Source of the DNA: a virus
Reading direction: 5' to 3' (one strand)
Length of the DNA stretch: 64,000 bases
IMG/VR virus record: IMGVR_UViG_3300021373_002801
Location: 1 to 64,000 of that record
Below the pieces are notes generated by a model that did not search any database, was not told the origin of the DNA, and saw only the letters and a program-made list of their open reading frames with translations. Of this stretch, positions 8,110 to 46,468 are shown piece after piece (positions within the stretch are counted from its first letter, which is position 1; every line of letters starts with the position of its first letter). The position numbers were made by a program, and so were the translations under genes.

Positions 8110-8130
8110 ACAGCTATTATTTACAAATCA

Positions 8131-8138: not shown

Positions 8139-8143
8139 CTATT

Positions 8144-12060: not shown

Positions 12061-12064
12061 ATAA

Positions 12065-12840: not shown

Positions 12841-12842
12841 TT

Positions 12843-28846: not shown

Positions 28847-28847
28847 T

Positions 28848-29984: not shown

Positions 29985-29985
29985 T

Positions 29986-31122
29986 ATGGCAGATTTAAAA
30001 AATACAACAATAGGTACAACAAATGCAGTTGAACTTCCGGATCAAAATTTATCAGCTACAACAGGTTCTGCAAAACTTAGATTTAACACTACTGGTAGTT
30101 TAAATGCATTAGAGTTTTATGATGGATCAAATTGGAGACCTGTGACAGGATACAGTCAAGGTATTGTAGGTACAGGCGGACAAACTATTAACTATACTGA
30201 TCACGGTATTGTGCATATATTTACTACCACAGGAAACCATACATTTACACCATCTTTTACAGGTAATGTACAAGTAATGGTAGTAGGTGGCGGTGGTGCT
30301 AGTGGTTATGATTGGTCCGGCGGTGGCGGCGGTGGTGGAGTTATCTTTAACAGATCATTTCCAGTAAGCGCAGGCAGTGGTTATAATGTTACAGTAGGTG
30401 CAGAAGGCCGTGGAGGAAACGGCGCAGGAGGATCACCTACGATTGCAGGCCAAAACGGAGGTAATAGTGTATTTTCAACTATAACTGCTCAAGGCGGTGG
30501 CGGAGGTGGCTCTTGGCGTAACGGTTCGCCACAGGGTTATGATAATGGACACTCGTCTGGACGTACAGGTGGATCAGGCGGTGGCGGCAGTAATTCTAGA
30601 GACGATGGAAGTAGGCGTAGACACTTAGGTGGCAGGGATACAGACGGTCAAGGTTATCCAGGTGGATCTGGTGTTAGATTTAATGCTAATAGTGAAAACG
30701 CTCACTTAGGTGGCGGTGGTGGTGGAGCCGGCGGCGGCGGCGCAAGTGCACCTGACGGTCGTCAAAACTATAGAGGAAGTTTTCGTGGAAATCAAATTTC
30801 GGGCGGAGCAGGCCGTGCTACAGACTTGCTTGGTGGAACATTATATTTTGGTGCTGGCGGAGCAGGTGGTGGACACCTAGGTTGGAATGTTAATGGCAAT
30901 GCTGGAGGCATTGGCGGTGGAGGTGGAGGTAGTTTCCATCACAGCGGACCTTATGGTGGACCAAGAAAGATTGGCCAAGGTGGCGGACAAAGTCTTAATA
31001 ACGGCCAAGATGGATTTCCAACAGCACGTGGCGGCTCAGGCGGATCACACACCGGCAGCGGTGGCGGTGGCGGACAATGGGGATATCCAGGCGGTAACGG
31101 TGTTGTTATAGTTAGATATTAA
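29986..31122 (+). CDS. Glycine-rich tail adhesin, copy 3
   Basis: A 378-aa paralogue of the two preceding adhesins, with FYDGSNWRPVTG, FTTTGNHTFTPSFTGNVQVMVVGGGG and a GVVIVRY end. The QRP module of the N-terminus is eroded here (SATTGSAKLRFNT). The start MADLKNT is the same as copy 2. It is the last + strand structural gene before the oxidative enzyme island, and its stop codon overlaps by 4 bases the stop of the halogenase coming the other way. Confidence 0.8.
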   Translation: MADLKNTTIGTTNAVELPDQNLSATTGSAKLRFNTTGSLNALEFYDGSNWRPVTGYSQGIVGTGGQTINYTDHGIVHIFTTTGNHTFTPSFTGNVQVMVVGGGGASGYDWSGGGGGGGVIFNRSFPVSAGSGYNVTVGAEGRGGNGAGGSPTIAGQNGGNSVFSTITAQGGGGGGSWRNGSPQGYDNGHSSGRTGGSGGGGSNSRDDGSRRRHLGGRDTDGQGYPGGSGVRFNANSENAHLGGGGGGAGGGGASAPDGRQNYRGSFRGNQISGGAGRATDLLGGTLYFGAGGAGGGHLGWNVNGNAGGIGGGGGGSFHHSGPYGGPRKIGQGGGQSLNNGQDGFPTARGGSGGSHTGSGGGGGQWGYPGGNGVVIVRY

Positions 31123-32687
31123 TCGTTATAAAAGTTTTCTTTTAAGAACGCATACAAAGATGGAACATGTTTAATTGCATTGTTCCATTTTTCTTTGCGT
31201 TGATCTAAGTTGTCTATCATATCTTTAAACTCGGATTTTTTATCTATGTGTTTAGGGAATATTTTGTTCAACACAGTAACATCGTTTGCATTCCAATTCA
31301 TACCTGCCGCCAAACAGTTTACTCCGTCATCGTCTTGTAGGAAATCAACAAAGTTTTTTTGGTAAATGCTTTGATAATATAGTCCTTGTGTTTGTAAATT
31401 ATTTAACGCTGGCATAAGATTGGTATAGCTCTTTTGTGTAATATCTTTCCAATATTTACTGTCATTTCTATGACTTAATGCATAGTGCATACTTACGAAA
31501 TTTGCCCAATAGTTAAATGTATCGTCGCATACAAGATTAAATTCGTCTCTATCCCATTGACTAATGCTGTTAGATCTTACTAACATTCTTACTAAATTTG
31601 TTGCAAAATCGTGGGTAGTAAGTAAGCCTGTACTTTCTAAAGGCTCAATAAATCCTGCACTTAATCCTATAGCTACAACATTCTTAACCCAAAGTTTTTC
31701 ATGTATGCCTACTCTCATCTCAATATCTTTAAAAGTGCAATTAGATGTATCATATCCTTTACTGTTAAGATGTGTTATAAAATCAATTTTTGCTTGTTTG
31801 GGATTTATATAATTATCGCTATAAACATACCCAGTACCAATCCTTGACCATAAAGGAATATTCCAGACCCAACCATTTTCTAATGCACTACAGTCTGTTA
31901 CACTATCTAGTTGTTTTTCCTTATCAGTGTAATCTACTCTTGTTGCCCATGCTCTATTATTTGGTAAAATATGTTCATAACTTTTAAAAGGAACTTTCAT
32001 CGCTTTACCTAGTAATAAACTATTGAAGCCTGTACAGTCTATAAATAAATCTCCAAATATTTTATCGCCATTGTCTAATACTATGCTATCAATGCCTATA
32101 TCTGATTTATTACAAGTAACAACTTCCCCATTTACATATTTTACTCCTAAGTTTTTACAAAATTTATCTCTAAGCCATATACCTAATTTAGCAGCATCAA
32201 AATGAAAAGCAGTATCATTATAAAAATCAAATCCTTTTAAATCAGGATGATCAACAAGCATTTTATTTTCTTTTACTAATGACATTTGAGGATAGTAACA
32301 ATCTACGTAATCATCTGAAGGCGTTTCTGGATATAAAGTTTTTTTAATAAACCAATCATCTCTTTGGTGCATACAATTATCAAATAACGGCTGTCCAAAG
32401 GGATAATACCAAGACCCGCTGTCATGTTTATGAAAGTTATTAAATTTTATAGCAAGTTTGTAACTTGCATCTGTTTCTTTTACAAAATCTTTATCGTGTA
32501 TTCCTACCATCCTTAACCAAGCACGTATTCCTCCTACTGTACTTTCGCCAACTCCCACTGTAGGTATATTAGGACTTTCTACTACAGTAATATTAACATT
32601 GTTAATCTGAGATGCTATTGTAGCGGCAGTCATCCATCCGGCACTACCTCCTCCCACTATAATAATATCTTGTATATCACTGCTCAT
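31119..32687 (-). CDS. Flavin-dependent halogenase, tryptophan-halogenase type, FDH-1
   Basis: A 522-aa protein, the usual length of the family. It has the FAD-binding GGGSAGW motif (residues 12-18), GVGEST (45-50), Lys77 in DASYKLAIKF at the place of the catalytic Lys79 of PrnA/RebH, WVWNIP (the WxWxIP signature), and GLSAGFIEPLESTG, whose Glu-Ser matches the active-site pair of PrnA. Such enzymes use FADH2, O2 and halide to halogenate electron-rich substrates; a cyanophage member (VirX1) is known to act on varied substrates. No flavin reductase is visible nearby, so reduced flavin would come from the host. Last gene of a three-gene, overlapping minus-strand operon. The substrate cannot be read from sequence. 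Confidence 0.85.
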   Translation of the reverse strand: MSSDIQDIIIVGGGSAGWMTAATIASQINNVNITVVESPNIPTVGVGESTVGGIRAWLRMVGIHDKDFVKETDASYKLAIKFNNFHKHDSGSWYYPFGQPLFDNCMHQRDDWFIKKTLYPETPSDDYVDCYYPQMSLVKENKMLVDHPDLKGFDFYNDTAFHFDAAKLGIWLRDKFCKNLGVKYVNGEVVTCNKSDIGIDSIVLDNGDKIFGDLFIDCTGFNSLLLGKAMKVPFKSYEHILPNNRAWATRVDYTDKEKQLDSVTDCSALENGWVWNIPLWSRIGTGYVYSDNYINPKQAKIDFITHLNSKGYDTSNCTFKDIEMRVGIHEKLWVKNVVAIGLSAGFIEPLESTGLLTTHDFATNLVRMLVRSNSISQWDRDEFNLVCDDTFNYWANFVSMHYALSHRNDSKYWKDITQKSYTNLMPALNNLQTQGLYYQSIYQKNFVDFLQDDDGVNCLAAGMNWNANDVTVLNKIFPKHIDKKSEFKDMIDNLDQRKEKWNNAIKHVPSLYAFLKENFYND

Positions 32688-33405
32688 AGGGACATCCTTT
32701 TAATTTTGCTAGACTTTTATATCTTTCGTTTAATGGTCTAAATGTATGTTCGTTACGTATATTATTGCATAATTTTATATCTTCCCATGGACACTTTTGT
32801 TGTTGTAGTTTTACAATATTATCACTGTAAAATTTAAAATATGCAATAGCATCGCCTTTTTTGATTTTAATTTTATCTTTTATTTTTTTACATTCAAATA
32901 CAATTTCAGCAGGTCTTGTCCATTTTGCAATGTCAAACTCGCCAGGATATAATGTTGTTTTGTCTGTAAAATCGTTGTAGTGCAAAAATGCAGGTAGCAT
33001 TTGCATTTGCATACTGTCTGATGTTTGGAAAATATTTAACCAATCAATACCTATCATAGGATATACATTCTTTCCACGTTGACTATCAAACAAAAATCTG
33101 GTGTCAATTAAACAATTAAATTGTTCTTGATTAAGATTAGGACATGTAATTTTTACATCACCAGTTTTTTCATTTACATCTATTTCAATAGTAAGATCGT
33201 ATGGAGCATGAAACACAAACATATTCTTTATGAAGTCTGTATGTGCTGGACACTTTAAAACAATATTTCCTTTACGTTCGCTAATATAAGTTTTTTGTAG
33301 AGGAACTAAAACATCTTGCGAATTATCTAACAAATCAATTAAACACGCAGGATGGTCTATATCCCATTCACTGCTGGTTATAAACGACCAATTAATTAAT
33401 GCCAT
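32677..33405 (-). CDS. Unknown protein between two halogenases (242 aa)
   Basis: A 242-aa protein overlapping both neighbours (14 bases with the halogenase upstream, 11 with the one downstream), so it is almost certainly translated with them. Visible features are an N-terminal INWSFITSSEWDIDHPACLIDLL segment, a central MQMLPAFLHYNDFTDKTTLYPGEFDIAKWTRPAEIVFECK segment, and a KGDAIAYFKFY segment near residue 190. It has no HxD motif and no flavin motif, so it is not an obvious oxygenase. It may be a partner, substrate carrier or fold-cupin-like accessory protein; this is speculation. I do not recognise a named family. Confidence 0.6.
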   Translation of the reverse strand: MALINWSFITSSEWDIDHPACLIDLLDNSQDVLVPLQKTYISERKGNIVLKCPAHTDFIKNMFVFHAPYDLTIEIDVNEKTGDVKITCPNLNQEQFNCLIDTRFLFDSQRGKNVYPMIGIDWLNIFQTSDSMQMQMLPAFLHYNDFTDKTTLYPGEFDIAKWTRPAEIVFECKKIKDKIKIKKGDAIAYFKFYSDNIVKLQQQKCPWEDIKLCNNIRNEHTFRPLNERYKSLAKLKGCPYEQ

Positions 33406-34867
33406 GTTTTTTTATTTCTCTTAATCTATCTAATTCTGTGCTATGATGATGTCCGTCTAAATATCTAAATTTTTCAAATTCAACATAATTCTTTATTATT
33501 ATGTTTTTTGCTGTTTCCTTATCTATACCAATATTTTTTTCTGTTAACTTATATCCTAGTTGAATAAGGAATATTGTCCAATTAGGGCCACCAAACATTG
33601 TGTTATATTTAACTGTAGTAGGTAGTTGTATATTGGGATTTTTAAAGTCTTCGATATAACTTAACATCTCATCACTGGGGACAAAAAGGTCGTTTACATA
33701 ATTCCAAAAAGGTGTAGTCCTAATATTATCTGCATAATGCATTGCAACGAAGTTAACACAATTTTCAAATACAATTTTCATTTGTATGTTAAAATAATCA
33801 ACTTCGTTTTTTGTATAGTGATTTTCGTTTAATATTCCGTTTAACTGACCAACTGCATAGGTCATTAGTGCTACACCTGAACTTTCTAAAGGTTCAATAA
33901 ACCCTGCGCTAAGTCCTATACTTACAATGTTATCGTGCCACTGATCTTCGTTATAATAAGGATCCCAATTTATTACTTTTAAATTATCTTTATCTATTCT
34001 ATTATCCCAATAATCTACAAAATAATTTTTAGCATCATCTATATCAGTTATGTTCCTGTTGAATAGCATACCAGTACCAATTCTATCTTGTACAGGTATT
34101 TTCCAAACCCATCCATGATCTACAGCATCGCATTTGACATACGGGGTTAGTTCATTTTCCCTATCATTGTACGGAACATGCCCTGCAATAGCAGTGTTAA
34201 CAAATAAACGTTTGTCCAAATTTACACGTTTACAATTTTTTCGTAAAACTTGTTTAAACCCAGTGCAGTCGATATACAAATCGCTTTTAATTATGTCGCT
34301 GTTTTGTAAATGTAAACAGTCTATACCTTCATTTTGATTATAATCAATATCGATTACATCACTGTTTATAATAGTAACTTTGTTTTCTAATTTTTTCCTT
34401 ACATAAGACACAAGTTTACCACAATCAATGTGTACAGCATAGCGTTCTAATTCTGTCATGTCTACACTATTTTTCATGCTATTTTCATAAAACGCTGTAC
34501 AATATTTTTTAAAATCTAAATCCTGCACATTTGTATATAGATCATAAAGATTCCAGTTTTTTAAAATTCTATCATTGCCTTTATAAAAAGGGTGCCAAAT
34601 ATCTTCACCAGGTTTTTGCCAATTCGTAAAAAGTATACCTGACTTATAAGCACTTTTTATTTCTAAAAACCAATCTTCTATAGGAAATCCTGCTTCCTCA
34701 AGAAACGGTCTAAAAGTTAAAAGCGTAGCCTCTCCAACACCAATAGGTTCTGGTACTTCTTTGTCAACTACAGTAATGTTAATATGTGGTTGTCTATGGC
34801 TAAGATATGCAGCTGTAAGCCATCCAGCAGTACCGCCGCCTACAATAGTAAGTGTGTTGACTTTCAT
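33392..34867 (-). CDS. Flavin-dependent halogenase, FDH-2
   Basis: A 491-aa protein with GGGTAGW (residues 10-16), GVGEAT (43-48), catalytic-type Lys75 in SAYKSGILFTNW, the DCTGF strand, WVWKIP and GLSAGFIEPLESSG. All core features of tryptophan-type halogenases are kept. The C-terminal region has FVAMHYADNIRTTPFW, also typical. First gene of the operon 34867 to 31119, with an AAAGGA ribosome site before the ATG. A 2OG oxygenase gene diverges only 39 bases away, so the two operons probably share one control region. Confidence 0.87.
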   Translation of the reverse strand: MKVNTLTIVGGGTAGWLTAAYLSHRQPHINITVVDKEVPEPIGVGEATLLTFRPFLEEAGFPIEDWFLEIKSAYKSGILFTNWQKPGEDIWHPFYKGNDRILKNWNLYDLYTNVQDLDFKKYCTAFYENSMKNSVDMTELERYAVHIDCGKLVSYVRKKLENKVTIINSDVIDIDYNQNEGIDCLHLQNSDIIKSDLYIDCTGFKQVLRKNCKRVNLDKRLFVNTAIAGHVPYNDRENELTPYVKCDAVDHGWVWKIPVQDRIGTGMLFNRNITDIDDAKNYFVDYWDNRIDKDNLKVINWDPYYNEDQWHDNIVSIGLSAGFIEPLESSGVALMTYAVGQLNGILNENHYTKNEVDYFNIQMKIVFENCVNFVAMHYADNIRTTPFWNYVNDLFVPSDEMLSYIEDFKNPNIQLPTTVKYNTMFGGPNWTIFLIQLGYKLTEKNIGIDKETAKNIIIKNYVEFEKFRYLDGHHHSTELDRLREIKKHGIN

Positions 34868-34893
34868 ATATTGTATCCTTTGTTTAATGTACT

Positions 34894-34901
34894 TATAAAT
34901 A
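34894..34901 (+). promoter_or_regulatory. T4-type late promoter box placed for a leaderless mRNA
   Basis: TATAAATA, a perfect consensus match, is followed by only five bases (TTGCT) and then the ATG at 34907. T4 late transcripts begin about six bases past the box, so the predicted first base would be the A of the start codon. No ribosome binding site is visible. Confidence 0.6.
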
Positions 34902-34906
34902 TTGCT

Positions 34907-35482
34907 ATGCTTATAGTTGACGATCTGATATCAAAACCGTATCAAGAAGAAATAAAAGAAAATTTCTTAGATATTGAAAATAAAAATTCTTATAAGTTTC
35001 CTTGGTCTTTTGTGCCGGATGTAACATCGGCAGATGTTGGCATTGTTGCTCCAGCAATGATGCATAATTTTTGTTGGGAGCGGGGAAATTATTCTCAATA
35101 TTTTGATTTAGTTGAGCCAATTGCAATAGCAGGAGCAAATGCAGTAAACTATCCTGCAACCACAGTAATACAAGCTAGAAGTTTTTTACAATATCCTCTA
35201 AGCAAAACATTTCACGATAAACAAGTTGATCGCTTGCATATAGATTTAGATTATAAACATTTGGTTGTGCTATATTATGTTTTAGATTCTGATGGCGATA
35301 CTATTATAACAAATAAAACATATGACGAACATAATGAACATTATTTAGATAAAATTGATGATGTTGTAATGCGAGTCACACCAAAACAAGGTAGAGCTGT
35401 AATTTTTGATGGTAAGTACTATCATACAGCAGAACAGCCTAAAGATAATTTGAGATGCATTATAAATTTTAATGTAGAGTAA
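34907..35482 (+). CDS. 2OG-Fe(II) oxygenase, first gene of a five-gene operon
   Basis: A 191-aa protein. The start at 34907 is chosen because the next ATG-like starts upstream lie inside the opposite halogenase gene, and because MLIVDDLISKPYQEE is a typical oxygenase N-terminus. The metal and co-substrate residues are visible: His111 and Asp113 (RLHIDLDY), distal His173 (KYYHTAEQP) and Arg183 (RCIINF). This is the HxD...H...R set of double-stranded beta-helix dioxygenases. Substrate unknown. It is preceded by a late promoter placed five bases before the ATG. Confidence 0.82.
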   Translation: MLIVDDLISKPYQEEIKENFLDIENKNSYKFPWSFVPDVTSADVGIVAPAMMHNFCWERGNYSQYFDLVEPIAIAGANAVNYPATTVIQARSFLQYPLSKTFHDKQVDRLHIDLDYKHLVVLYYVLDSDGDTIITNKTYDEHNEHYLDKIDDVVMRVTPKQGRAVIFDGKYYHTAEQPKDNLRCIINFNVE

Positions 35483-35485
35483 AAA

Positions 35486-36097
35486 ATGATAGAATTTGAA
35501 GTTATAGATAATTTTTTACCTAATGATCAGTTTACGAAACTGTCTAGCTATCTACTGTCTCAAGATTTTCCTTGGTTTTACACAGAGCATGTTTCATTAG
35601 ATCCTATAGATAACAATATTAAAAATCCTGAAGCAATAGAAACAGACGGATATGCACATTTGTTTTATGATAGAGATAACGGATTAGAAGCTGTTACGCA
35701 CAAAGTAATGGAAGACTTTAATAAACAAATACAAATTAAATTTGGTGTAACCTACAATGATATAATCCGATCAAGAGCTAGTATAAAGCATCCAAAAATA
35801 GGATACACTGAAGAAAATTATAACTTACCCCATGTTGATTATTTTATACCTCATCTTAGTTTAATTTATTATCTTAATGATTGTGACGGCGATACAAGAA
35901 TATTTGAAGAAAAATTTACTCCAGTACCCTCTGGCCCTAATTTAGGGATAAGTTATGATACGTTTACGGTTAAAGATAGAGTATCACCAAAAGCAAATCG
36001 ACTTCTTGTTATTAACGGACTGCGATATCATACAGCAAGTAACCCTATAAAAAGTAAAAGACGTGTAATTATTAATATTAATACGGAGGCAAAATGA
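35486..36097 (+). CDS. 2OG-Fe(II) oxygenase
   Basis: A 203-aa protein, related in layout to the gene before it (FEVIDNFLPNDQFTKLSSYLL at the start, PHVDYFIPHLSLIYYLN in the core). Metal ligands His116, Asp118 and His182 (RYHTAS) and a 2OG-binding Arg around 192-193 are present. It starts 3 bases after the previous stop without a clear ribosome site, so translation is probably coupled. Probably a hydroxylase of peptide or amino-acid substrate; which one is unknown. Confidence 0.82.
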   Translation: MIEFEVIDNFLPNDQFTKLSSYLLSQDFPWFYTEHVSLDPIDNNIKNPEAIETDGYAHLFYDRDNGLEAVTHKVMEDFNKQIQIKFGVTYNDIIRSRASIKHPKIGYTEENYNLPHVDYFIPHLSLIYYLNDCDGDTRIFEEKFTPVPSGPNLGISYDTFTVKDRVSPKANRLLVINGLRYHTASNPIKSKRRVIININTEAK

Positions 36098-36744
36098 GAA
36101 TAGATCATGCATTTCCAATTCCTATAGTTACACTAGATTTAGATAAATCTGCATTAGATGATGCACACAAAAAAGTATGTACTTACATTAAAGAAAAAAT
36201 GCCAGAAAGCACACAAGAAAAAAATAAATTGCTTACTACATACTACCATGATAATAAAAACTTTTTAGGCACAATAAATGCTATTCCTATATTAGAGGAA
36301 ATTAATAAACATGTGAGGGGATTTTTAGAATTAAGGGGATTTAGACCTGATTGTTATGTTGAAATTACTAGTTGGTTACAAATAAACCAGCCTGGTTCTT
36401 TGTTTAACAGACACGATCATTATGGAGCAATAGTTAGCGGAGTGTTTTATTTAGAAGTTCCTGAAAATTCTGGAAACTTAAAATTTCATAATCCTTTAGA
36501 ACCAAGACGTGCATCTGATGTCTTTTTTGATAGGATAAGAAAAGAAGAAAATCAGTATAATTATGATTATATTGAATATGTCCCCAAAGTAGGCGAAATG
36601 ATAATGTTTGAATCTTGGCTACAACATAGCGTAGAGATTAATAAAGCAGATAAAGATAGGTTATCTGTTTCGTATAATGTTTGGGCAGACGTAGACGATA
36701 CAGTAAAAAAATTACGTAATGAAAGAGGCGATAATGGATCCTAG
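36094..36744 (+). CDS. 2OG-Fe(II) oxygenase-like protein, HxH type
   Basis: A 216-aa protein of the type often called putative 2OG-Fe(II) oxygenase in phages (TIGR02466-like). It has His107-x-His109 (NRHDHYGAIVSGVFYLEVP), distal His178 (ESWLQHSVEIN) and Arg189 (DRLSVSYN). In this group the second ligand position is commonly His or Asn rather than Asp; metal use is therefore less certain than for the HxD members. It has a strong ribosome site (GGAGG) and a 4-base overlap with the gene before it. Confidence 0.78.
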   Translation: MRIDHAFPIPIVTLDLDKSALDDAHKKVCTYIKEKMPESTQEKNKLLTTYYHDNKNFLGTINAIPILEEINKHVRGFLELRGFRPDCYVEITSWLQINQPGSLFNRHDHYGAIVSGVFYLEVPENSGNLKFHNPLEPRRASDVFFDRIRKEENQYNYDYIEYVPKVGEMIMFESWLQHSVEINKADKDRLSVSYNVWADVDDTVKKLRNERGDNGS

Positions 36745-37318
36745 TGTTGAAATGTGGTTTCCAGTAGCAATATACAAAGACACTGGAATTATATCTATAC
36801 AAGAAAATACAAAAATTTACAATCGTGGTTTAGAACTACAAAAGACTGTTGCTAATGGAGGTAAAGAGTGGTACGGTGACACATACAATACTCATGACAC
36901 TTTCGATTTAACCAACGATGAAATATTTCATCCATTATTAGATCAAATCACAGCCCATGCACACAATTTTGCTGAAATGCACGGATCAAGCTCTGAACTA
37001 AAACTGTCGGGCGCCTGGCTTAATATTAATTCTGAAGGCACATTTCAAGAGTTTCATACTCATAATAATGCAATTTTTAGTTGTGTGTATTGGGTAGCAG
37101 CACCACCAGGATCAGGTAAATTAATTTTCGAAGACCCTAAAGAACCAGATATGTTACAAATTAGAGACATAAAATCTAGAAATAGTTTAAGTTTTACACG
37201 AATAGGATACGAAGCAGAGGAACGCAAATTACTAATTTTTAGATCTTATCTTCGTCATATGGTAGAACCTTGTAAAAATAAAACTCCAAGAATGAGTATT
37301 GCTGTAAACTATAGTTAA
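36734..37318 (+). CDS. 2OG-Fe(II) oxygenase-like protein, HxH type
   Basis: A 194-aa protein. The start at 36734 is preferred over an in-frame ATG at 36719 because AGAGG lies seven bases before it and MDPSVEMWFPVAIY matches the family N-terminus (motif ..FP..I). It carries His108-x-His110 (FHTHNNAIFSCVYWVAAPPGSGKL), His175 (SYLRHMVEP) and Arg186 (RMSIAVNY). Overlaps the previous gene by 11 bases. Same subgroup as the proteins at 36094, 39444 and 43085. Confidence 0.78.
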   Translation: MDPSVEMWFPVAIYKDTGIISIQENTKIYNRGLELQKTVANGGKEWYGDTYNTHDTFDLTNDEIFHPLLDQITAHAHNFAEMHGSSSELKLSGAWLNINSEGTFQEFHTHNNAIFSCVYWVAAPPGSGKLIFEDPKEPDMLQIRDIKSRNSLSFTRIGYEAEERKLLIFRSYLRHMVEPCKNKTPRMSIAVNYS

Positions 37319-37322
37319 ATGA

Positions 37323-39404: not shown

Positions 39405-39430
39405 TTTAGTATTTTCCTTTTAATGTTAAC

Positions 39431-39438
39431 AATAAATA
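39431..39438 (+). promoter_or_regulatory. T4-type late promoter box placed for a leaderless mRNA
   Basis: AATAAATA is followed by TCTGT and the ATG at 39444, the same five-base spacing as at 34894-34907. No ribosome binding site lies between. If the start at 39423 were used instead, the box would be inside the gene. Confidence 0.5.
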
Positions 39439-39443
39439 TCTGT

Positions 39444-40070
39444 ATGAACAATATACATCTAGAACACCATCCAATGTTTGTTACATCTGCTTATGTTACT
39501 TATGTCGAAGATATAGACAACACCAAGATAAGTGAACATGTATATCACTTAGATAAAAATGTTCCTAATGTTAGACGACAGCGTAGCAATGCCGGAGGCT
39601 TTCAAACTAATGATATTTACCCAATGCCCTATGATTTTGACGAAACAGGTAAATTATTTGATAATTTTATTAAACCGTCGGTTGGTACTATATTAAATGG
39701 TTGGCAAGTTCCGCATGATATTGATAGTTTTAGTTATTGGTATAATTTAAATCCAAAATACACATACAACAGAGAACATATACATGCAAATGCTCTTGTT
39801 AGCGGAGTGTATTATGTTAAAGTTCCTAAAGATAGTGGTAGGATAGTTTTTAATCGTAGTACCAACGAATACGATCGTATGCATAATATTCAAACTATTT
39901 ACGCATCTAACGATTCTATAGTAGATAATCCACAAACAAATAATTCACATTGGTTTATTCCAGTAGAAGGAATGCTTGTGCTTTTTCCTAGTCATGTCAG
40001 TCATTATGTAGAACAGAATGTTACAGATGACGAAAGTGATGGTCGAATATCACTAAGTTTTAATTTTTAA
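39444..40070 (+). CDS. 2OG-Fe(II) oxygenase-like protein, HxH type
   Basis: A 208-aa protein from the ATG at 39444; an in-frame ATG at 39423 would add seven residues, and Met11 is also possible. It has His112-x-His114 (REHIHANALVSGVYYVKVP), His187 (FPSHVSHYVE) and Arg201 (GRISLSFNF), the full pattern of the TIGR02466-like subgroup. Its 3' end overlaps by 11 bases the halogenase gene coming the other way. It stands alone, divergent from FDH-3. Confidence 0.78.
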   Translation: MNNIHLEHHPMFVTSAYVTYVEDIDNTKISEHVYHLDKNVPNVRRQRSNAGGFQTNDIYPMPYDFDETGKLFDNFIKPSVGTILNGWQVPHDIDSFSYWYNLNPKYTYNREHIHANALVSGVYYVKVPKDSGRIVFNRSTNEYDRMHNIQTIYASNDSIVDNPQTNNSHWFIPVEGMLVLFPSHVSHYVEQNVTDDESDGRISLSFNF

Positions 40071-41559
40071 ATCTATACTGGTGAAACTCTTCGCTAGTCA
40101 TACAATAAGACATAGTATTATACCATTCATCTTGCATGTCTAACAATGCATGTTCAATATCATCTTGGGTGTGTATTCTACTTAAATCATTTACTGCAAT
40201 TTCTGGATTAATTAAGCCTATTTGATACATAACATGACTATATAACGGACCGCCTCCACTGCCGTAATATGTAGGGAAATCGTATCTACTTGGAATTCTT
40301 GACTTAGAACTTTCAATTAGTGTTTTATTATATTCTGTTGCCGAATTATTAGTAACATATTTCCAAAATTCAGTATCTGTTCTTCCCCCCATATAATGCA
40401 TGTTTAAAAAATGCATATAATCATCTACAGATTTAGCATTTGTTTCATTATATATTTTTTGAGAAGATTCATTACATGTATCTTCAATTGTATTTTTTAA
40501 AAACTGTTTACTAAAGATCTGTGTTTGCACTACAGTATGATGTATTGCTGTAGCTTCCATGGGTTCTAAAAATTGCGAACTTAATCCGTTAGCAAAACAA
40601 TTTTTGATCCAAGATTGTTTTAGCCTTCCTGCATCAAACTTTACAACTTTTATAGGATCAATACTATGTCCGTATACTGTTTCTACTTCTTTTATAGCAT
40701 CGTCTATACTTATAAAATTGTCACTGAATACATATCCGTTGCCTCTTCGGTGTGCAAGAGGACCGCGCCACACCCATCCGTTGTTTTGTGCCCAGGCAGT
40801 TGTATATAATTCGGGATATTCATGTTCGTTATATTGTGTAAAAAACGGTATTGCAGTGTTAACTGGTAAATGATCTTTATAACTTATCCAATTATTTTCT
40901 TTTAACTCATTTATTAAGATTTTTTTAAATCCACTACAATCTATAAAAAAATCTGCGCCAATATCTGTTTGATTAGACAAATTTAGAGATTTTATAAAAC
41001 CTTTATCGTCAAAATTAACATTAATAACTTCTGTATCTATTAATTTTACATTTTTTAATTGTAAACAGTGATTTTTTAAATATTCACTAGTTTTCATACC
41101 GTCTATATGTAATGCAAAATTGTAATCTATAAAATCTTGATCTGTTTTATGAAATAATGTAAACTTTTTATCAATAAAATTACCAAGTCGACTAATTTTT
41201 CCAAGATCTTTTCGAGGCAAGTTGTTCATACCCCAATAGAAAAACAGATCTTGGTCTAATCCGCTAGTATAACTACCGTCAATGGGCGCAGTATAGTAAT
41301 CTGTAACATCAGGAGCCCAATTTATGTGCCGAATGGCATATTTTGGAGTAGCATTTGTCTTTAACATGAAATCTTTTAAAGACAGTCCGTACCTTCCGTC
41401 TAATAAGTTTGTAAAATACCCTGTAGTACTTTCACCTACACCTATAATACCAAATTTTGATGATTCAATTACTGTAAATGTGTGGTTAGGGTGTTCGTGT
41501 GCTAAAATTAGTGCAGTCGTCCAGCCACTTGTACCCCCACCAACAATGACTATGTTCAT
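40060..41559 (-). CDS. Flavin-dependent halogenase with variant signature, FDH-4
   Basis: A 499-aa protein with GGGTSGW (residues 7-13), GVGEST, Lys73 in NATPKYAIRH at the catalytic position, DCSGF and GLSSQFLEPMEATA. The WxWxIP signature reads WVWRGP. It is closest in the window to FDH-5 just upstream (shared WAPDV/TNDV..DYY..PIDG, TTAWAQ..GW, MGGR.D.EFWKY), so the two look like a tandem duplication that has diverged. The start overlaps the FDH-5 stop by 4 bases. Confidence 0.84.
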   Translation of the reverse strand: MNIVIVGGGTSGWTTALILAHEHPNHTFTVIESSKFGIIGVGESTTGYFTNLLDGRYGLSLKDFMLKTNATPKYAIRHINWAPDVTDYYTAPIDGSYTSGLDQDLFFYWGMNNLPRKDLGKISRLGNFIDKKFTLFHKTDQDFIDYNFALHIDGMKTSEYLKNHCLQLKNVKLIDTEVINVNFDDKGFIKSLNLSNQTDIGADFFIDCSGFKKILINELKENNWISYKDHLPVNTAIPFFTQYNEHEYPELYTTAWAQNNGWVWRGPLAHRRGNGYVFSDNFISIDDAIKEVETVYGHSIDPIKVVKFDAGRLKQSWIKNCFANGLSSQFLEPMEATAIHHTVVQTQIFSKQFLKNTIEDTCNESSQKIYNETNAKSVDDYMHFLNMHYMGGRTDTEFWKYVTNNSATEYNKTLIESSKSRIPSRYDFPTYYGSGGGPLYSHVMYQIGLINPEIAVNDLSRIHTQDDIEHALLDMQDEWYNTMSYCMTSEEFHQYRFKN

Positions 41560-43085
41560 AAATTTCGTAATCCTCTAAAATATTCAATAAACTCTTTATA
41601 AGAGTAACAATATTGTGTCTCATTTGCCCAATGATTTTTAAGTTCATAATGACTATGTTGTGTTAGCTCATATAAATTACCTTCTGGCAAGCTAAAATCT
41701 ATTTCTGAACTAGCAATATCTTTGTTAAGAACATTTATACCTTCCATAACATAACTGTACAACGGCCAACCAGCACTACCTTGGTAATGAGGGAAATCGT
41801 TAAATGTCGGTGTCCTATATTTTGCCATTTCTAATAATTCTTTTACAAACTCAGTTTGAGTTACTCCGGTTTTAATATATTTCCAAAATTCGCTGTCGTC
41901 TCGGCCACCCATGTAGTGCAATACTAGAAAATCTTTAATGTCATCGTATAATTTTCTTGTTCGTTTGTTATATATTGCCATACTTCCTTCATTTATAGTT
42001 TGTTCGATAGTAGGTTTTACATATTCAAAGAATAAATTATTAGCTTGTACAATAGTTGAATGAATACTAGTTGCTTCCAACGGTTCTAAAAAGGCACTAC
42101 TAAGTCCGATAGTAACACAATTTTTAATCCAAGCACTTTCTTGCCGCCCTGAATCAAATTTTATTACTCTGATAGGATCTATTTCTTGTCCTAGTATTGT
42201 TTCTATTTCTTCTTGGGCTTTGTCAGGAGTTGTATAAGCATCGCAATAAACATATCCGCATCCTTTTCGATCCATTAGAGGTATCTGCCACATCCAACCT
42301 GCTTTTTGTGCCCAGGCAGTTGTATATGGTTCTGGAACTTCGCCTTCTTTGTATTTTAAATGAAACGGCAACCCTGTGTTTAGAGGCAAGTTGTCTTGGA
42401 AACTTACCCATTTACTAGGAAGATGTTTCATTACCACACGATTAAATCCTGAACAATCAATAAAAAAATCACCGTCTAATATTTGTTGGTTAGATAACAC
42501 CAAACTTTTCACAAATCCCTTATCATTGAGTTTTACATCTAGTACTTCGGTATCAATGTGTTTAGTGTTAAGTCGACGAAGTGCAACTTTTTTAAAATAT
42601 TGCCCTGCAAGGTGTGCGTCTATGTGATATGCATGATGATTGTCTATAAATTCTTTTTTAAATTTATTAAAATTACTTAATTCGTTGTAAATCCAATAAC
42701 CACAACGAGAAAGATTTAACATTTCTTTTCTTTGTAGTTTGTCTAAACCATAATTAAACATACAATCGGGTACAGCACTAGCAGTAGTGGTACCATCAAT
42801 AGGGCCTATATAATAATCATCAACGTCATTAGTCCACCCCTTGTGTTTAATAGCGTATTTTAAAGTTGCACCAGTTTCTTTAATAAATTCGTTTTGATCA
42901 CATCCGTAATTTGTAGCCCAGTTAACTAGTACATCGGTAAAGTGTCCAGTAGTGCTTTCACCAACACCAACTACCCCTATTTTACTACTTTCAATAACAG
43001 TAATTTCGTGATCAGGATGCCTTGCACTAGCAATCAATGCCGTGATCCATCCTGCTGTGCCGCCTCCTACAATTACAATCTTCAT
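41556..43085 (-). CDS. Flavin-dependent halogenase, FDH-5
   Basis: A 509-aa protein with GGGTAGW (residues 7-13), GVGEST, Lys76 in GATLKYAIKHKGW at the catalytic position, DCSGF, WMWQIP (intact signature) and GLSSAFLEPLEATS. FLVLHYMGGRDDSEFW near residue 395 is typical of the family. Its ATG overlaps the stop of the oxygenase gene upstream (TAATG), and it overlaps FDH-4 downstream. The unit 2OG, 2OG, FDH, FDH (44342 to 40060) is therefore one coupled operon. Confidence 0.86.
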   Translation of the reverse strand: MKIVIVGGGTAGWITALIASARHPDHEITVIESSKIGVVGVGESTTGHFTDVLVNWATNYGCDQNEFIKETGATLKYAIKHKGWTNDVDDYYIGPIDGTTTASAVPDCMFNYGLDKLQRKEMLNLSRCGYWIYNELSNFNKFKKEFIDNHHAYHIDAHLAGQYFKKVALRRLNTKHIDTEVLDVKLNDKGFVKSLVLSNQQILDGDFFIDCSGFNRVVMKHLPSKWVSFQDNLPLNTGLPFHLKYKEGEVPEPYTTAWAQKAGWMWQIPLMDRKGCGYVYCDAYTTPDKAQEEIETILGQEIDPIRVIKFDSGRQESAWIKNCVTIGLSSAFLEPLEATSIHSTIVQANNLFFEYVKPTIEQTINEGSMAIYNKRTRKLYDDIKDFLVLHYMGGRDDSEFWKYIKTGVTQTEFVKELLEMAKYRTPTFNDFPHYQGSAGWPLYSYVMEGINVLNKDIASSEIDFSLPEGNLYELTQHSHYELKNHWANETQYCYSYKEFIEYFRGLRNL

Positions 43086-43717
43086 TAAAAATCCTCTGTC
43101 GCTAATCCGGAGTTAAAAGCCATGTTAATCCTTTTCCGATCAATAGGGTTATTATGTACTTTGTGTATTAAATAACTTGGAAATAATAGTATATCTCCAT
43201 CCTTAGGTTCATAATATGAAGTTCCATGATAAGGCCAAGAAACATGTGTTGTTCTATGCATATAATGTTGTGGTATAAATTCAATCGCTCCAGTTCCTGT
43301 GCCTTGAAAGTAAAAAACTCCACTTACTAAGTTTGCACTAGATGTGTGAGCATGTTCTCGATTTTCTGCACCCTTTTCATTCATATTGAACCAAGCATCT
43401 ACATTCCACTGAGTTGATATTTCTACATCTTGTATATTTAAGTTATTAGGTTTAGGTAAAGCAGACATGTATTGGTTTGAAACTTCTAAAATTTTATTTA
43501 CAAGGTACTGTTGTGTTTGCTCATCAAATCCATTGTGTAAATGCGGCTTCCCCCTCCAGCATCCAAAATGACTATTTTTTAACATTTTTATATCTGCATT
43601 CAGTGTTTGATCTTTATATATTTTAATTTGATTACTAATTTTGTCACACATTGCTTGTGGAATTTCATTTTCCATGTGTAATATAATTGTTTGATCAATA
43701 ATATTTAAATTATGCAT
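43085..43717 (-). CDS. 2OG-Fe(II) oxygenase-like protein, HxH type, in halogenase operon
   Basis: A 210-aa protein with His122-x-His124 (NREHAHTSSANLVSGVFYF), His185 (FPSYLIHKVHNN) and Arg196 (KRINMAFN). The start at 43717 overlaps the previous gene by 8 bases and the stop overlaps FDH-5, so it is tightly tied to the halogenases. It belongs to the same subgroup as 36094, 36734 and 39444. Its substrate is unknown; sharing an operon with halogenases suggests consecutive steps on the same substrate. Confidence 0.78.
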   Translation of the reverse strand: MHNLNIIDQTIILHMENEIPQAMCDKISNQIKIYKDQTLNADIKMLKNSHFGCWRGKPHLHNGFDEQTQQYLVNKILEVSNQYMSALPKPNNLNIQDVEISTQWNVDAWFNMNEKGAENREHAHTSSANLVSGVFYFQGTGTGAIEFIPQHYMHRTTHVSWPYHGTSYYEPKDGDILLFPSYLIHKVHNNPIDRKRINMAFNSGLATEDF

Positions 43718-44342
43718 ATGTAAATACTACTACTACTCGTCTTTCGTGTAATGACGGATATTTATGGGCATGATAACAACCTTTAAATTGTGATACTTGC
43801 CATTTTTGTGCAGGTAATTCGTTCCAATCATTTATTTCCTCGTTCCATACTAGCGTAGGAGCTGTTGGATTATCTGTTAGATATAGTAACCAATTATAGT
43901 GATGCCAAGTATGATCTTCATGCGGCACGGTTATAGCATTTTCGCCATTATACCAATTACAATTTACATTTGCTCTAAAAATATTATGATAAGATTTGTT
44001 ATTTTGGCTCATCCAATTATGAAAAATTTCAAAAAAGAATTCTGCATACCCTTCACTAAAATGATCAGTTGGTCTATCAGTGTGTTTAACATGTTCTTCT
44101 TCAGTTCTGCGTAGAAGTGCATGACTTAAGAAAGGACCATTTACATATGATCCCTGTTTTATTTTTTCGGGAGTATTTTCAGGTGGAATATAAGTTGTTT
44201 GTTTAGATACATAGTACCAAGGAAAATGATAACCTAAAACATCATTTTCAATAATTGCTTTGTGCTGGTCCGACAGTAGTCCATCTGAATATGTTGTATC
44301 TTTTGGTAAAATCATATACATATTTAACGATAAATGACACAT
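43710..44342 (-). CDS. 2OG-Fe(II) oxygenase-like protein, first gene of minus-strand halogenase operon
   Basis: A 210-aa protein if it starts at 44342. A start at Met10 (44315) is also attractive, since TTAAATATGTAT lies directly before it with the same box-to-ATG spacing as the two leaderless candidates on the + strand. Visible ligands are His141-Glu-Asp143 (VPHEDHTWHHYNWLLYL), distal His191 or His193 (GCYHAHKYP) and Arg201. It heads the coupled operon 2OG, 2OG, FDH-5, FDH-4. Neither start has a good ribosome binding site. Confidence 0.75.
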   Translation of the reverse strand: MCHLSLNMYMILPKDTTYSDGLLSDQHKAIIENDVLGYHFPWYYVSKQTTYIPPENTPEKIKQGSYVNGPFLSHALLRRTEEEHVKHTDRPTDHFSEGYAEFFFEIFHNWMSQNNKSYHNIFRANVNCNWYNGENAITVPHEDHTWHHYNWLLYLTDNPTAPTLVWNEEINDWNELPAQKWQVSQFKGCYHAHKYPSLHERRVVVVFTYA

Positions 44343-44424
44343 AGCTTATGAAATACGAATCAAAAAAATATTAAATAATAATGTGCGTAGATAAGTAAAT
44401 GTGTATGCTACCTGGAGGAAAGAA

Positions 44425-45042
44425 ATGAACACAGAAAATTCAAGCGGATTTACACAGCCAGCTATGGAACGCACCGAATCGGATAAGCCAGACCAAGAAG
44501 CAAGTTTACAGATTACTTCAATAAACTTTAATCCACTGTTTGACAACGAGGAAGTCAAAACCATATGTGAAAATACTATTGACGAACTTTGGATGCCTAT
44601 CAAAGTTATGGGTAACGAAGATTTACATAAAGGGTTTAGGCAAAAGCTAAGAGGAGATGTTGCAGATTTTCCTTTTACTAAGATTAGAGATATAACAAAA
44701 TCTGCAAACGATCAAATCTACAATTTTGATCTATTAGGGATTATTGATCAAGATTTCCCCCAAGTCTATAAATATACTGAAGAATGTTATTATAAAACCC
44801 ATATAGATTTGAATGTTCTTGCACCTACAAGAAAAATTACTTGGATAATAAATTTATCAGATGAAGACGAATACGAAGGTGGAAATATTTCTTTTTTAAA
44901 TATTGACACTACCGAAGTAAATACTAACACAAAGGGATCAATTTTAATTTTTCCTTCTTTTATACCTTATAGTATTGATAAAATTACTAAAGGAGAAAAG
45001 AAATTTATTGTTGGTCATGTGCATGGAGCTGTTTTCCGTTGA
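44425..45042 (+). CDS. 2OG-Fe(II) oxygenase-like protein lacking the distal metal His
   Basis: A 205-aa protein. The ATG at 44425 is chosen for its strong GGAGG six bases upstream; an in-frame GTG at 44401 is less likely. The core reads THIDLNVLAPTRKITWIINLSDEDEYEGGNISF, giving His126 and Asp128. Aligned with the neighbour at 45039, the segment FPSFIPYSIDKITKG has Tyr182 where the third metal ligand His should be, and Lys193 where Arg binds 2OG (Lys is used in prolyl 4-hydroxylases). The fold is kept, but activity may be lost or altered. The first 30 residues are polar and probably unstructured. Confidence 0.75.
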   Translation: MNTENSSGFTQPAMERTESDKPDQEASLQITSINFNPLFDNEEVKTICENTIDELWMPIKVMGNEDLHKGFRQKLRGDVADFPFTKIRDITKSANDQIYNFDLLGIIDQDFPQVYKYTEECYYKTHIDLNVLAPTRKITWIINLSDEDEYEGGNISFLNIDTTEVNTNTKGSILIFPSFIPYSIDKITKGEKKFIVGHVHGAVFR

Positions 45043-45827
45043 TTTTAGATTATGATTATTGGTATTTTGAAAAAGCAATAGATCCATCCCTCTGTGATCA
45101 TATAATTCAACAGGGTCTTGCAAAAATGAAAGCACAAGAAGATCAATTTGGTAAAGAAGTATCTATTGCCACTACAGGTGGTTGGCAACACAAAGGGTCT
45201 GAAGGCTACAAAAAAGCAGTAAATGATAAATCTATAGAAGAATTAAAACAAGAAGGATTAGATCCTTCTGAAGCATATGTAAGAGACTCAAACATTACAT
45301 GGCTAAACGACGAACCTTTGTTTGAAATGGTTCAGGCTTTTGTTAAAGAAGCTAACATACAAGCAGGTTGGAATTTTGATTGGGATTATACCGAAGAATT
45401 TCAATTTACAAAATATGGACCAGGCCAATTTTACGGATGGCATGTTGATATGGGCTCAAAACCCTATCGTGAATTTAAACCTGAAGAAGATAATTGGAAA
45501 CTTAATCCTAACGGAACTCCCATGTTAGATACATTTGGTAATCCTTTGACTGAAGATAATTTAGCAACTTCAAATCCTAATTTAATTGGTAAGATAAGAA
45601 AACTAAGTGTGACAATTAGTTTAAATAAACCTGAAGAATACGAAGGAGGAAATTTAAAATTTGACTTTGGACCGCATGCCGATGAAAGATTCCATGAATG
45701 TACAGAAATTAGACCACAAGGCAGTGTTATAGTATTTCCATCACATGTCTACCACCAAGTAACACCAGTCACAAAAGGTACAAGATATAGTTTAGTGGGT
45801 TGGAATTTAGGATATCCATTTAGATGA
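45039..45827 (+). CDS. 2OG-Fe(II) oxygenase, prolyl-hydroxylase-like (PKHD/P4Hc type)
   Basis: A 262-aa protein starting with TTG at 45039, overlapping the previous stop (TTGA); GGAG lies 11 bases upstream. The full set is present: His135 and Asp137 (FYGWHVDMGSKP), His239 (FPSHVYHQVTPVTKG) and Arg249 (TRYSLVGW). LSVTISLN..EEYEGGNLKF is typical of P4H-type enzymes. Such genes are common beside structural genes in marine T4-like phages, where their substrate is not established. It would hydroxylate a protein or peptide residue. Confidence 0.87.
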   Translation: MILDYDYWYFEKAIDPSLCDHIIQQGLAKMKAQEDQFGKEVSIATTGGWQHKGSEGYKKAVNDKSIEELKQEGLDPSEAYVRDSNITWLNDEPLFEMVQAFVKEANIQAGWNFDWDYTEEFQFTKYGPGQFYGWHVDMGSKPYREFKPEEDNWKLNPNGTPMLDTFGNPLTEDNLATSNPNLIGKIRKLSVTISLNKPEEYEGGNLKFDFGPHADERFHECTEIRPQGSVIVFPSHVYHQVTPVTKGTRYSLVGWNLGYPFR

Positions 45828-46468
45828 CAAATCCAGAGCTTTTTAAACAAAATTTATATGTTGACTGTAAATCAATCGTACCAAAAGATATATGCAATCT
45901 AGTATCTAAATACTGTTTGATGAGAGAAGAAAATAAATTAGATGCACCTGAAGAAGCAGACGGCCAAGTACCATTTTCTCATAGCGTGTACGGTGATACA
46001 CTAATGGAAACATTAGAATTTTTCTTGCTACCCTATATGGAATCAAATACTGGACTGAGACTAGCTCCTACTTACAGTTATTATAGAGTATATAGGCCCG
46101 GAATGGAACTTGAAAGGCATAAAGATAGAGAAAGTTGCGAAATAAGCACATCGGTGTGTTTTGATTTTAAATATAACGATACATCAGAAGATTATCATTG
46201 GAGTATGTATGTAGATAAAGAATCTGTAAATACACCTGTACTGGGAGATTTTGTAAGTGCGGGTAATCCAGGAATTCCAGTACAACAGTCACCAGGTGAT
46301 ATTTTAATATATAGAGGTGTTGATATCGAACATTGGAGAGATCCTTTTGTAGCAGGAATAAATAGTTATCATATACAAGGATTTTTCCATTATATAGACA
46401 AAGACGGACCTTTTTATCCTGAATGGGTATATGACAAGCGTCCTAGATTAGGCTATAAAGAATTTTAG
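45824..46468 (+). CDS. 2OG-Fe(II) oxygenase
   Basis: A 214-aa protein overlapping the previous gene by 4 bases (ATGA). It has His99-Lys-Asp101 (ELERHKDRESCEIS) and distal His170 (YRGVDIEHWRDPF), with Arg172 nearby. The YSYYRVYRPGMELERHKD segment is characteristic of a dioxygenase group found in many phages and bacteria. It is the last enzyme gene of the island; the fibre-chaperone gene with its own late promoter follows. Confidence 0.82.
   Translation: MTNPELFKQNLYVDCKSIVPKDICNLVSKYCLMREENKLDAPEEADGQVPFSHSVYGDTLMETLEFFLLPYMESNTGLRLAPTYSYYRVYRPGMELERHKDRESCEISTSVCFDFKYNDTSEDYHWSMYVDKESVNTPVLGDFVSAGNPGIPVQQSPGDILIYRGVDIEHWRDPFVAGINSYHIQGFFHYIDKDGPFYPEWVYDKRPRLGYKEF

Follow-up and report, generated by a model that had tools for sequence, protein, structure and literature searches.

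Clustered halogenase and 2OG/Fe(II) oxygenase-type genes behind the fibre-tip genes of a jumbo-type phage: a possible system for decorating receptor-binding tips

In the window, the whole 64,000-nucleotide stretch analyzed here (part of a 76,580-bp linear record, IMG/VR IMGVR_UViG_3300021373_002801), positions 31119-46468 hold five flavin-dependent halogenases, eleven 2OG/Fe(II) oxygenase-type genes and one further gene (phrog_17480). This island would be a block of tailoring enzymes belonging to the host-recognition region of the marine phage, and post-translational decoration of the fibre-tip proteins by its enzymes is the best explanation and, on balance, a probable one. The major capsid protein is closest to those of jumbo myophages (Vibrio phage 2.275.O, 71%; PA5oct and CBB, 64-65%).

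Gene content of the island

An earlier note on this DNA had read 17 ORFs in the island, and all are present; the single correction is to the ORF listed from 34784, for which the probable start is the ATG at 34904. Its division into five halogenases, eleven oxygenase-like proteins and one unknown is borne out by PF04820 hits and by an iron triad in 10/11 oxygenase genes, the product of 44401-45042 being a member of the fold that lacks it. The genes are as follows:

31119..32687, minus: halogenase 1, VirX1 homolog; PF04820 1e-101; VirX1/6QGM over full length, E=6e-103; K77, E351, WVWNIP
32677..33405, minus: 242-aa protein, phrog_17480; conserved in relatives
33392..34867, minus: halogenase 2; PF04820 1e-79; K75, E328
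34904..35482, plus: 2OG/Fe(II) oxygenase-type; phrog_274, weak PF13640; H152, D154, H214, R224 invariant (numbering from 34784)
35486..36097, plus: 2OG/Fe(II) oxygenase-type; phrog_274; H116, D118, H182, R193 invariant
36094..36744, plus: 2OG/Fe(II) oxygenase, PF13759/TIGR02466; PF13759 E=1.6e-23; H107xH109, H178 invariant, R189 0.95
36719..37318, plus: 2OG/Fe(II) oxygenase, PF13759; E=2e-19; H113xH115, H180 invariant, R191 0.98
37323..37961, plus: 2OG/Fe(II) oxygenase-type; phrog_1644 ("minor coat protein"); H120xD122, H189, R203 invariant
37944..39404, minus: halogenase 3, TTG start; PF04820 1e-92; K76, E325
39423..40070, plus: 2OG/Fe(II) oxygenase, PF13759; E=1e-19; H119xH121, H194, R208 invariant
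40060..41559, minus: halogenase 4, sister of halogenase 5 in the tree; PF04820 2e-87; K73, E335
41556..43085, minus: halogenase 5; PF04820 3e-96; K76, E337
43085..43717, minus: 2OG/Fe(II) oxygenase, PF13759; E=4e-15; H122xH124, H185 invariant, R196 0.98
43710..44342, minus: 2OG/Fe(II) oxygenase-type; phrog_274; H141xD143, H191, R202 invariant among 7 sequences
44401..45042, plus: 2OG-fold protein, probable pseudo-oxygenase; PF13640 5e-8; distal His->Tyr, Arg->Lys
45039..45827, plus: 2OG/Fe(II) oxygenase, PKHD-type relative; PF13640 2e-14; H135xD137, distal His, Arg; PDB 3dkq/PiuC E=1e-5 to 4e-4
45824..46468, plus: 2OG/Fe(II) oxygenase-type; phrog_2954 ("ferrochelatase"); H99xD101, H170, R172 invariant

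All five halogenases cover the PF04820 profile nearly end to end (E = 1e-79 to 1e-101), and the GxGxxG flavin site and the catalytic Lys and Glu are kept in 5/5; across the halogenase alignment the Lys is found in 152/152 sequences and the Glu in 150/152. The WxWxIP motif is exact in halogenases 1, 2 and 5 and reads WMFTIP in halogenase 3 and WVWRGP in halogenase 4. The five fall into separate lineages of the tree, and the closest isolate relative of halogenase 2 is the S-SSM6a/S-SSM7 halogenase (39%; AGH07741.1 in S-SSM6a). Six of the eleven oxygenase-like genes pass the curated Pfam cut-off (PF13759 in four, PF13640 in two), while the other five have a weak Pfam label or none but show an invariant H-x-D...H...R in alignments. 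The iron triad (H-x-D/H...H) and the Arg are kept in ten; the exception, 44401-45042, has lost the triad, with Tyr for the distal His and Lys for the Arg in its nearest orthologs as well, and is probably a member of the 2OG fold and not an active enzyme of the 2OG/Fe(II) type. Judged by these residues, nearly all of the island enzymes look catalytically competent. Because they keep the 2OG triad, the genes of the island that PHROG labels "DNA endonuclease V", "minor coat protein" or "ferrochelatase" were not taken to have those functions. Some members of such blocks fall in families that include protein hydroxylases, namely JmjC_2 (in P-TIM40) and the PKHD-type relatives, a point in favor of the decoration of tip proteins. 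For the 242-aa protein, the AF2 model (pLDDT 71) returned no confident fold match, only weak dUTPase-like beta matches (E of at least 0.025), and a link to the phrog_7084-type protein that follows VirX1 in cyanophages is no more than suggestive (hhalign E=0.006, probability 6%).

The many 2OG oxygenases of marine T4-like phages have been interpreted as metabolic or DNA-repair genes. A metabolic or stress role for the island, in which the oxygenases tune 2-oxoglutarate/nitrogen signalling or repair DNA and a halogenase protects against antibiotics, would agree with proposals made for cyanophages (PMC3037559, PMC2984593), but it does not account for the position beside fibre tips, for five lineages of halogenases or for eleven oxygenases that diverge from one another and are each conserved, and we regard it as highly improbable.

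Island strands alternate and the remaining major genes of the window all lie on the plus strand, as had been described. Intergenic gaps range from -26 to +58 bp, and about half of the genes run opposite to the fibre genes, so the block is not simply co-transcribed with them. The T4-type late promoter TATAAATA was found 7 times against 10.9 expected, which is not above chance, and sigma-70-like sites and terminators likewise occur at chance frequency. Exact TATAAATAC sites number three (8131, 46475 and 46979), all in plus-strand intergenic gaps and none inside the island.

Every identified island gene is a tailoring enzyme. Family profiles revealed no scaffold-building enzyme, transporter or precursor peptide among the 17 genes, and gaps of at most 58 bp leave no space in the island for a gene of these kinds; Pfam and PHROG searches of the same genes found no carbamoyltransferase, amino-acid methylase or sugar enzyme. 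These absences bear on an alternative in which the block converts an amino acid, peptide or sugar of the host into a small molecule with halogen and hydroxyl groups, or in which it decorates the capsule of the host. This alternative is favored by the fact that small molecules are the substrates of most halogenases that have been characterised. A ten-gene halogenase/2OG/carbamoyltransferase cluster in S-SSM6a was published in 2021 with just such a proposal, the product being either a halogenated secondary metabolite or a decorated capsule (Iyer et al. 2021, PMC7824862). The halogenase named there is the relative of halogenase 2, and carbamoyltransferases and sugar enzymes are also encoded in the S-SSM7/S-SSM6a blocks. 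The island itself, however, has neither, nor a scaffold-building gene or transporter, and the S-SSM6a/S-SSM7 cluster likewise begins directly behind a long fibre and three tandem paralogs, a place that a free metabolite does not predict. We therefore consider a small-molecule product or capsule decoration possible but unlikely.

The fibre and tip array upstream of the island

The island is preceded by fibre and tip genes:

20446..26628, plus: long tail fibre gene, 2060 aa; in relatives, its homologs lie ahead of the enzyme block
26641..26964, plus: ~106-aa protein that follows the long fibre and serves as independent anchor; phrog_11338 tail fibre; 80 viral loci
26975..27781, plus: fibre tip / distal long-tail-fibre-like protein; PHROG tail fibre, "long tail fiber protein distal subunit"
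27782..28846, plus: Gly-rich tip paralog 1; orthologous group across relatives in the alignment
28848..29984, plus: Gly-rich tip paralog 2, proposed substrate; PF21722 E=5e-11; phrog_863 "tail fiber assembly" E=2e-13
29986..31122, plus: Gly-rich tip paralog 3; PF21722 E=2.5e-10

The ends of tip paralog 3 and halogenase 1 overlap by 4 bp. Glycine makes up 31% of the window's tip paralog triplet, and the AF2 model of paralog 2, of low confidence (mean pLDDT 61), has the Pam3 fibre 7ypx as its best PDB match (Foldseek, E=4e-5). From sequence and model, the Gly-rich paralogs resemble phage receptor-binding tips of the gp38/Pam3 gp24 type and are putative tips; the Gly-rich domain of Pam3 gp24 has been assigned to receptor recognition (PMC9608196). 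Glycine richness of the paralogs was rejected as a predictor of the enzymes (Fisher p = 0.39), and the common feature of the loci is the paralog array, not glycine. Among isolate phages, tblastn with a Gly-rich paralog gave no match, probably owing to the low-complexity filter, and a pattern scan with the Gly-rich alignment yielded few relatives.

Recurrence of the block beside tip arrays

The island is not unique, and clusters of its kind are known in related viruses. The earlier note knew of no phage cluster of this size and called for a search of viral contigs for at least three halogenases; 17 IMG/VR records (some near-duplicates) have 4-5 halogenases each, and several of these records share order and strands. 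Two of them, G012 and G058, have 5 halogenase genes each, one gene per record appearing as two PF04820 places. Six other contigs repeat a large part of the gene content, with its order and strands, at protein identities of mostly 45-68%, and all island genes are under purifying selection (dN/dS mostly 0.1-0.3); recurrence at this divergence and under this selection means that the island is not there by chance. Megablast of the island against isolate phages gave no match. A smaller version, with 2 halogenases and about 4-10 2OG genes, occurs in the isolates Syn9/Syn10, S-RIM44 and P-TIM40.

The array begins with the long fibre and continues through the ~106-aa protein and the tip to the tandem paralogs, usually three in number, with halogenase/2OG genes directly downstream. 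This arrangement is found in the window and in L009/G050, L010, L036/G012, L059, L061, G026, G028, G031, G033, G044, G048 and G058, and long-fibre homologs immediately precede the anchor in L010, L036, L059, L065, L072, L083, G044, G048 and others. The cyanophages S-RIM44, P-TIM40, Syn9/Syn10 and S-SSM7/S-SSM6a have a long fibre and 2-3 tandem paralogs in the equivalent place. With the ~106-aa protein as query and its best 80 matches as the sample, phylogenetically uncorrected counts over the 41 loci whose downstream sequence extends for 7 kb or more place a 2OG gene within 10 kb downstream in 35/41 and a halogenase in 27/41; exactly three tandem paralogs are present in 30/41. Across the 12 long anchor records (1.63 Mb), 25/26 counted halogenase genes lie at most 20 kb downstream of the anchor, or 8/9 when counted by record (P about 5e-5 for random placement). 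Among jumbo records that were selected by capsid and include a fibre, G039, G040, G044 and G048 have both Gly-rich tips and 2OG genes, and G036, G038, G041 and G042 have neither; G045 is truncated at the tip.

Some halogenases are distant from fibres: those of S-B64 (among replication genes), HTVC008M (between terminase genes) and G066 (105 kb from the anchor), and the third halogenase of S-RIM44. Block content also differs between phages, and many jumbo relatives are without a block. Host-recognition regions are hypervariable and gather cargo genes, so adjacency by itself is no proof of a shared role, and the variable content and frequent absence of the block are what would be expected if its genes had merely piled up there with no common function. 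Passive accumulation is nevertheless very unlikely, given that order and strands are kept at the identities and dN/dS values above, that catalytic residues are invariant, and that in the capsid-selected set halogenases are either present as a cluster or absent.

Another alternative is that the enzymes remodel the host surface, modifying its proteins or glycans, for example to block superinfection or to help with release. The host recognition cluster (HRC) of pelagi- and cyanomyophages, where glycosyltransferases are proposed to change the host surface (PMC7029224), lends itself to this reading, as do some halogenase pairs whose neighbors are a sugar epimerase and an RfaE-like kinase/cytidylyltransferase (L023). 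Like the island, the HRC is hypervariable and combines tail fibres with accessory enzymes within the structural region, but it highlights glycosyltransferases, whereas the island has halogenases and oxygenases and belongs to a different phage lineage. Since the window's island is without sugar enzymes, and oxygen- and FADH2-dependent enzymes would need to reach from the cell interior to targets at the surface, surface remodelling seems rather improbable.

Proposed decoration of fibre tips

Virion fibres or adhesins, one of the targets put forward in the earlier note, fit best among its options on account of the conserved position in the fibre region. We infer the substrate, reaction order and benefit of tip decoration as follows. 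After translation and before virion release, the enzymes would act on the adjacent fibre-tip proteins, chiefly the Gly-rich paralog triplet at 27782-31122. The five halogenases would each have a specificity of their own and, with FADH2 from the host, would halogenate electron-rich side chains (Trp, Tyr, possibly His); hydroxylation of side chains would fall to as many as ten oxygenases that use 2-oxoglutarate, iron and O2. The outcome would be a chemically tailored receptor-binding tip, which could be stiffer, stickier or protected from proteases, or could offer new host-binding chemistry. Tip composition did not support Trp and Tyr as the targets: triplets beside halogenases have no Trp or Tyr enrichment relative to triplets without them, and Trp is lower (1.3% versus 2.6%).

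More tentatively, and with somewhat less confidence than for the window itself, many marine myophages may carry three paralogous tips (possibly a heterotrimer) that receive halogens and hydroxyl groups at many sites from an exchangeable enzyme block and bind hosts via residues beyond the standard 20, the natural substrate of VirX1 being such a tip. The conserved place behind the fibre-tip array offers one testable answer for the natural substrates of both phage halogenases, VirX1 included, and 2OG oxygenases. Should this answer be true, phages would control their host range at a new level, by halogenating and hydroxylating their adhesins, and the enzymes could serve to modify proteins at chosen sites. 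Syn9, Syn10, S-RIM44 and P-TIM40, which have the smaller version, are isolated phages with public genomes, and direct experiment should be feasible.

Comparison with the closest known systems

VirX1, a characterised halogenase (iodinase), has an open active site that takes large substrates (PMC8407142) and that would suit a protein substrate. Halogenase 1 matches it over its full length at 35% identity and shares the catalytic Lys and Glu. VirX1 had been cited as a lone phage halogenase; it is CPUG_00131 of Syn10 (residues 2-530 identical), and the Syn10 block contains a second halogenase and about ten 2OG-type genes. The Syn10/Syn9 block, like the island, lies behind fibre and Gly-rich genes, the putative Gly-rich tip proteins of Syn10 being CPUG_00134 and CPUG_00135, whereas the island has five halogenases to its two, alternating strands and a jumbo-type phage as its carrier. 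In the S-SSM6a/S-SSM7 cluster, as in the island, a long fibre and three tandem paralogs are followed by halogenase and 2OG/cupin enzymes. There, however, a single halogenase is accompanied by carbamoyltransferases and sugar enzymes, and the paralogs are rich in Cys (11%) as well as in Gly. The Gly-rich adhesins Pam3 gp24 and S16 gp38 are like paralog 2 in their Gly-rich distal domain and, as the modelled match to the Pam3 fibre suggests, possibly in fold; each is one protein, whereas the window has three tandem paralogs.

Content and catalytic residues of the island

Comparison across viruses converts the enzyme list of this island into a specific, testable proposal: that the enzyme block modifies fibre-tip proteins, a reading to which we give slightly better than even chances. 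The island comprises 17 closely packed genes at 31119-46468 (intergenic distances -26 to +58 bp), and the gene set claimed for it in the earlier note, five halogenases, eleven 2OG/Fe(II) oxygenase-type genes and one unknown (phrog_17480), was borne out. In a Pfam profile search, five island proteins match Trp_halogenase (PF04820, E <= 1e-79). Four oxygenase-type genes pass PF13759 and two pass PF13640; the remaining five of the eleven are labelled weakly or not at all by Pfam, and PHROG assigns them names such as 'DNA endonuclease V'. Three such labels, repeated in cyanophage annotations, are probably wrong, judging by the 2OG iron triad present in each gene:

35486-36097, 2OG-type gene labelled 'DNA endonuclease V'
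37323-37961, 2OG-type gene labelled 'minor coat protein'
45824-46468, 2OG-type gene labelled 'ferrochelatase'

The source record is a linear IMG/VR fragment of 76,580 bp whose capsid protein has its nearest relatives in jumbo myophages. GC content is about 30-34% in the island versus 34-42% in most of the remaining window, and reaches 51% at 28001-30000, the site of Gly-rich genes.

In an alignment of the five halogenases with VirX1, a characterised cyanophage iodinase, and a further 146 viral halogenases, the Rossmann GGGxxG motif and the catalytic Lys and Glu are intact in all five:

31119-32687 (-), halogenase 1, K77 and E351
33392-34867 (-), halogenase 2, K75 and E328
37944-39404 (-), halogenase 3, K76 and E325
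40060-41559 (-), halogenase 4, K73 and E335
41556-43085 (-), halogenase 5, K76 and E337

At the catalytic Glu, EATS/EATA replaces ESTG in halogenases 3-5, which may alter their halide handling. Alignments of the oxygenases place H-x-D or H-x-H, the distal His and the Arg in 10 of the 11. In 44401-45042, Tyr and Lys replace the distal His and Arg, and since its nearest orthologs have the same loss, this gene is probably a conserved 2OG-fold pseudo-enzyme, perhaps the partner of the intact gene that it adjoins (45039-45827).

Conservation and cluster size in other viruses

The halogenase alignment, used to scan viral contigs, recovered 80 loci. In five of them (L009, L010, L036, L059, L061) and, as found later, in record G058, a large part of the island persists with its gene order and alternating strands. 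Where a clear ortholog exists, the halogenases and most of the oxygenases share 45-68% identity with the window proteins, and dN/dS between orthologs in related contigs is mostly 0.1-0.3, with synonymous sites close to saturation. Each of halogenases 1, 2 and 3 clusters in the tree with its counterparts from the other contigs, as does the 4/5 pair; 4 and 5 are sister lineages, and their split is older than L010. Such maintenance of distinct lineages side by side suggests non-redundant specificities.

This kind of cluster is already known in outline, and the window example falls in the largest size class. The statement that no phage cluster of this size was known did not hold, and the proposed search for clusters of at least three halogenases recovered such clusters; the island is not unique. 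Counting genes with split hits merged, five full-length halogenases occur in G002, G026 and G064, and four plus a short divergent copy in G012 and G058, so the window's five are joint largest. Twelve records have four (G001, G022, G024, G025, G028, G031, G032, G044, G048, G050, G063, G065); some of these 4-5-halogenase records are near-duplicates, e.g. G001/G050. Smaller versions occur in isolates: two halogenases each in Syn9 and Syn10, two in the block of P-TIM40, two in that of S-RIM44 with one more elsewhere, and one in that of Sf-CH11. VirX1, previously cited as a single phage halogenase, is a crystallised iodinase identical from residue 2 on to CPUG_00131 of Syn10, and thus belongs to such a two-halogenase block. 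Another recurring type (loci L023, L021, L027, L041) has two halogenases without 2OG genes; the L023 pair neighbours a tail sheath stabiliser, NUDIX, an RfaE-like kinase/cytidylyltransferase, a sugar epimerase and a long fibre-like gene.

Association with the fibre-tip array

Upstream of the island lie, in order:

20446-26628 (+), 2060-aa fibre
26641-26964 (+), ~106-aa protein
26975-27781 (+), tip protein
27782-31122 (+), three Gly-rich paralogs (the triplet)

The three paralogs average 31% Gly, with matches to PF21722 and to phrog_863 'tail fiber assembly'. One was modelled with AF2; the model, to be read with caution at a low pLDDT of 61, has as its best PDB match the fibre of cyanophage Pam3 (E=4e-5), in which receptor recognition is assigned to the Gly-rich domain (PMC9608196). 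Each paralog has a separate ortholog in L010, L059 and L061, as would be expected if three different subunits were required.

The ~106-aa protein served as an anchor so that loci were not picked by their enzymes; the set is the best 80 matches, related and not fully unbiased because the query alignment included loci originally found via halogenases. Of the anchor loci, 41 extend 7 kb or more downstream; within 10 kb downstream, a 2OG gene occurs in 35 and a halogenase in 27, and 30 of the 41 carry exactly three tandem paralogs. Of the 26 halogenase genes counted across 12 long records, 25 are located no more than 20 kb downstream of the anchor (8/9 by record; P about 5e-5 for random placement, phylogeny ignored). 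In capsid-selected jumbo records with the fibre region in view, Gly-rich tips and 2OG genes are co-present or co-absent, G045 ending at the tip.

Iyer et al. 2021 (PMC7824862) interpreted the S-SSM6a cyanophage cluster as a pathway either for making a halogenated secondary metabolite or for decorating the capsule. That cluster begins immediately downstream of a long fibre followed by three tandem paralogs, a context that the published passage on it does not discuss, and Pfam and PHROG identify no carbamoyltransferase, methylase, sugar enzyme, transporter or precursor gene among the 17 island genes, so every identified island gene is a tailoring enzyme. Older proposals of 2-oxoglutarate signalling, DNA repair or antibiotic protection (PMC3037559, PMC2984593) account for neither enzyme number nor position. 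In the open-access journal papers searched, we found no text that connects the halogenases or 2OG enzymes of phages with modification of fibres.

Several results give tip modification no support. Among anchor loci, enzymes are no likelier beside Gly-rich proteins than beside others, and many loci that are not Gly-rich also have tandem paralogs. Trp is lower in triplets adjoining halogenases than in those without (1.3% vs 2.6%) and Tyr is not higher; His, Asn, Asp and Ser are slightly raised. Cys averages 10.7% in anchor-set triplets without halogenases versus 1.0% with them, although S-SSM7 and L034, which combine Cys-rich triplets with halogenases, are exceptions to this pattern. In S-B64, HTVC008M and G066, a single halogenase is located away from fibres.

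Other features of the window and of related contigs

Tandem tip paralogs of a second class, both Cys-rich (8-13% Cys) and Gly-rich, occur in S-SSM7 (L007:5754-8147), L285, L309, L342, L351, L352 and G040, often accompanied by ~600-aa proteins, which in the two cases tested, S-SSM7 and L034, are carbamoyltransferases (PF16861). Virion-type proteins of 1921-2366 aa, very long and in tandem, occur at 54423-60188 in the window and at L006:907-6819 and 6876-13976; both L006 proteins have 'Y..GD.V..GG..Y.C'-like repeat units close to their N-termini, and behind them lies another small protein similar to the anchor (L006:13998-14333). Phage GroES and GroEL genes (47014-49009) stand immediately behind a tail assembly chaperone in the window's fibre region, and those of L009/G050 and G012 lie on the strand opposite to the fibre genes. 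Exact TATAAATAC sites number only three in the window (8131, 46475, 46979), all in + strand intergenic gaps preceding genes, and are possible T4-type late promoters.
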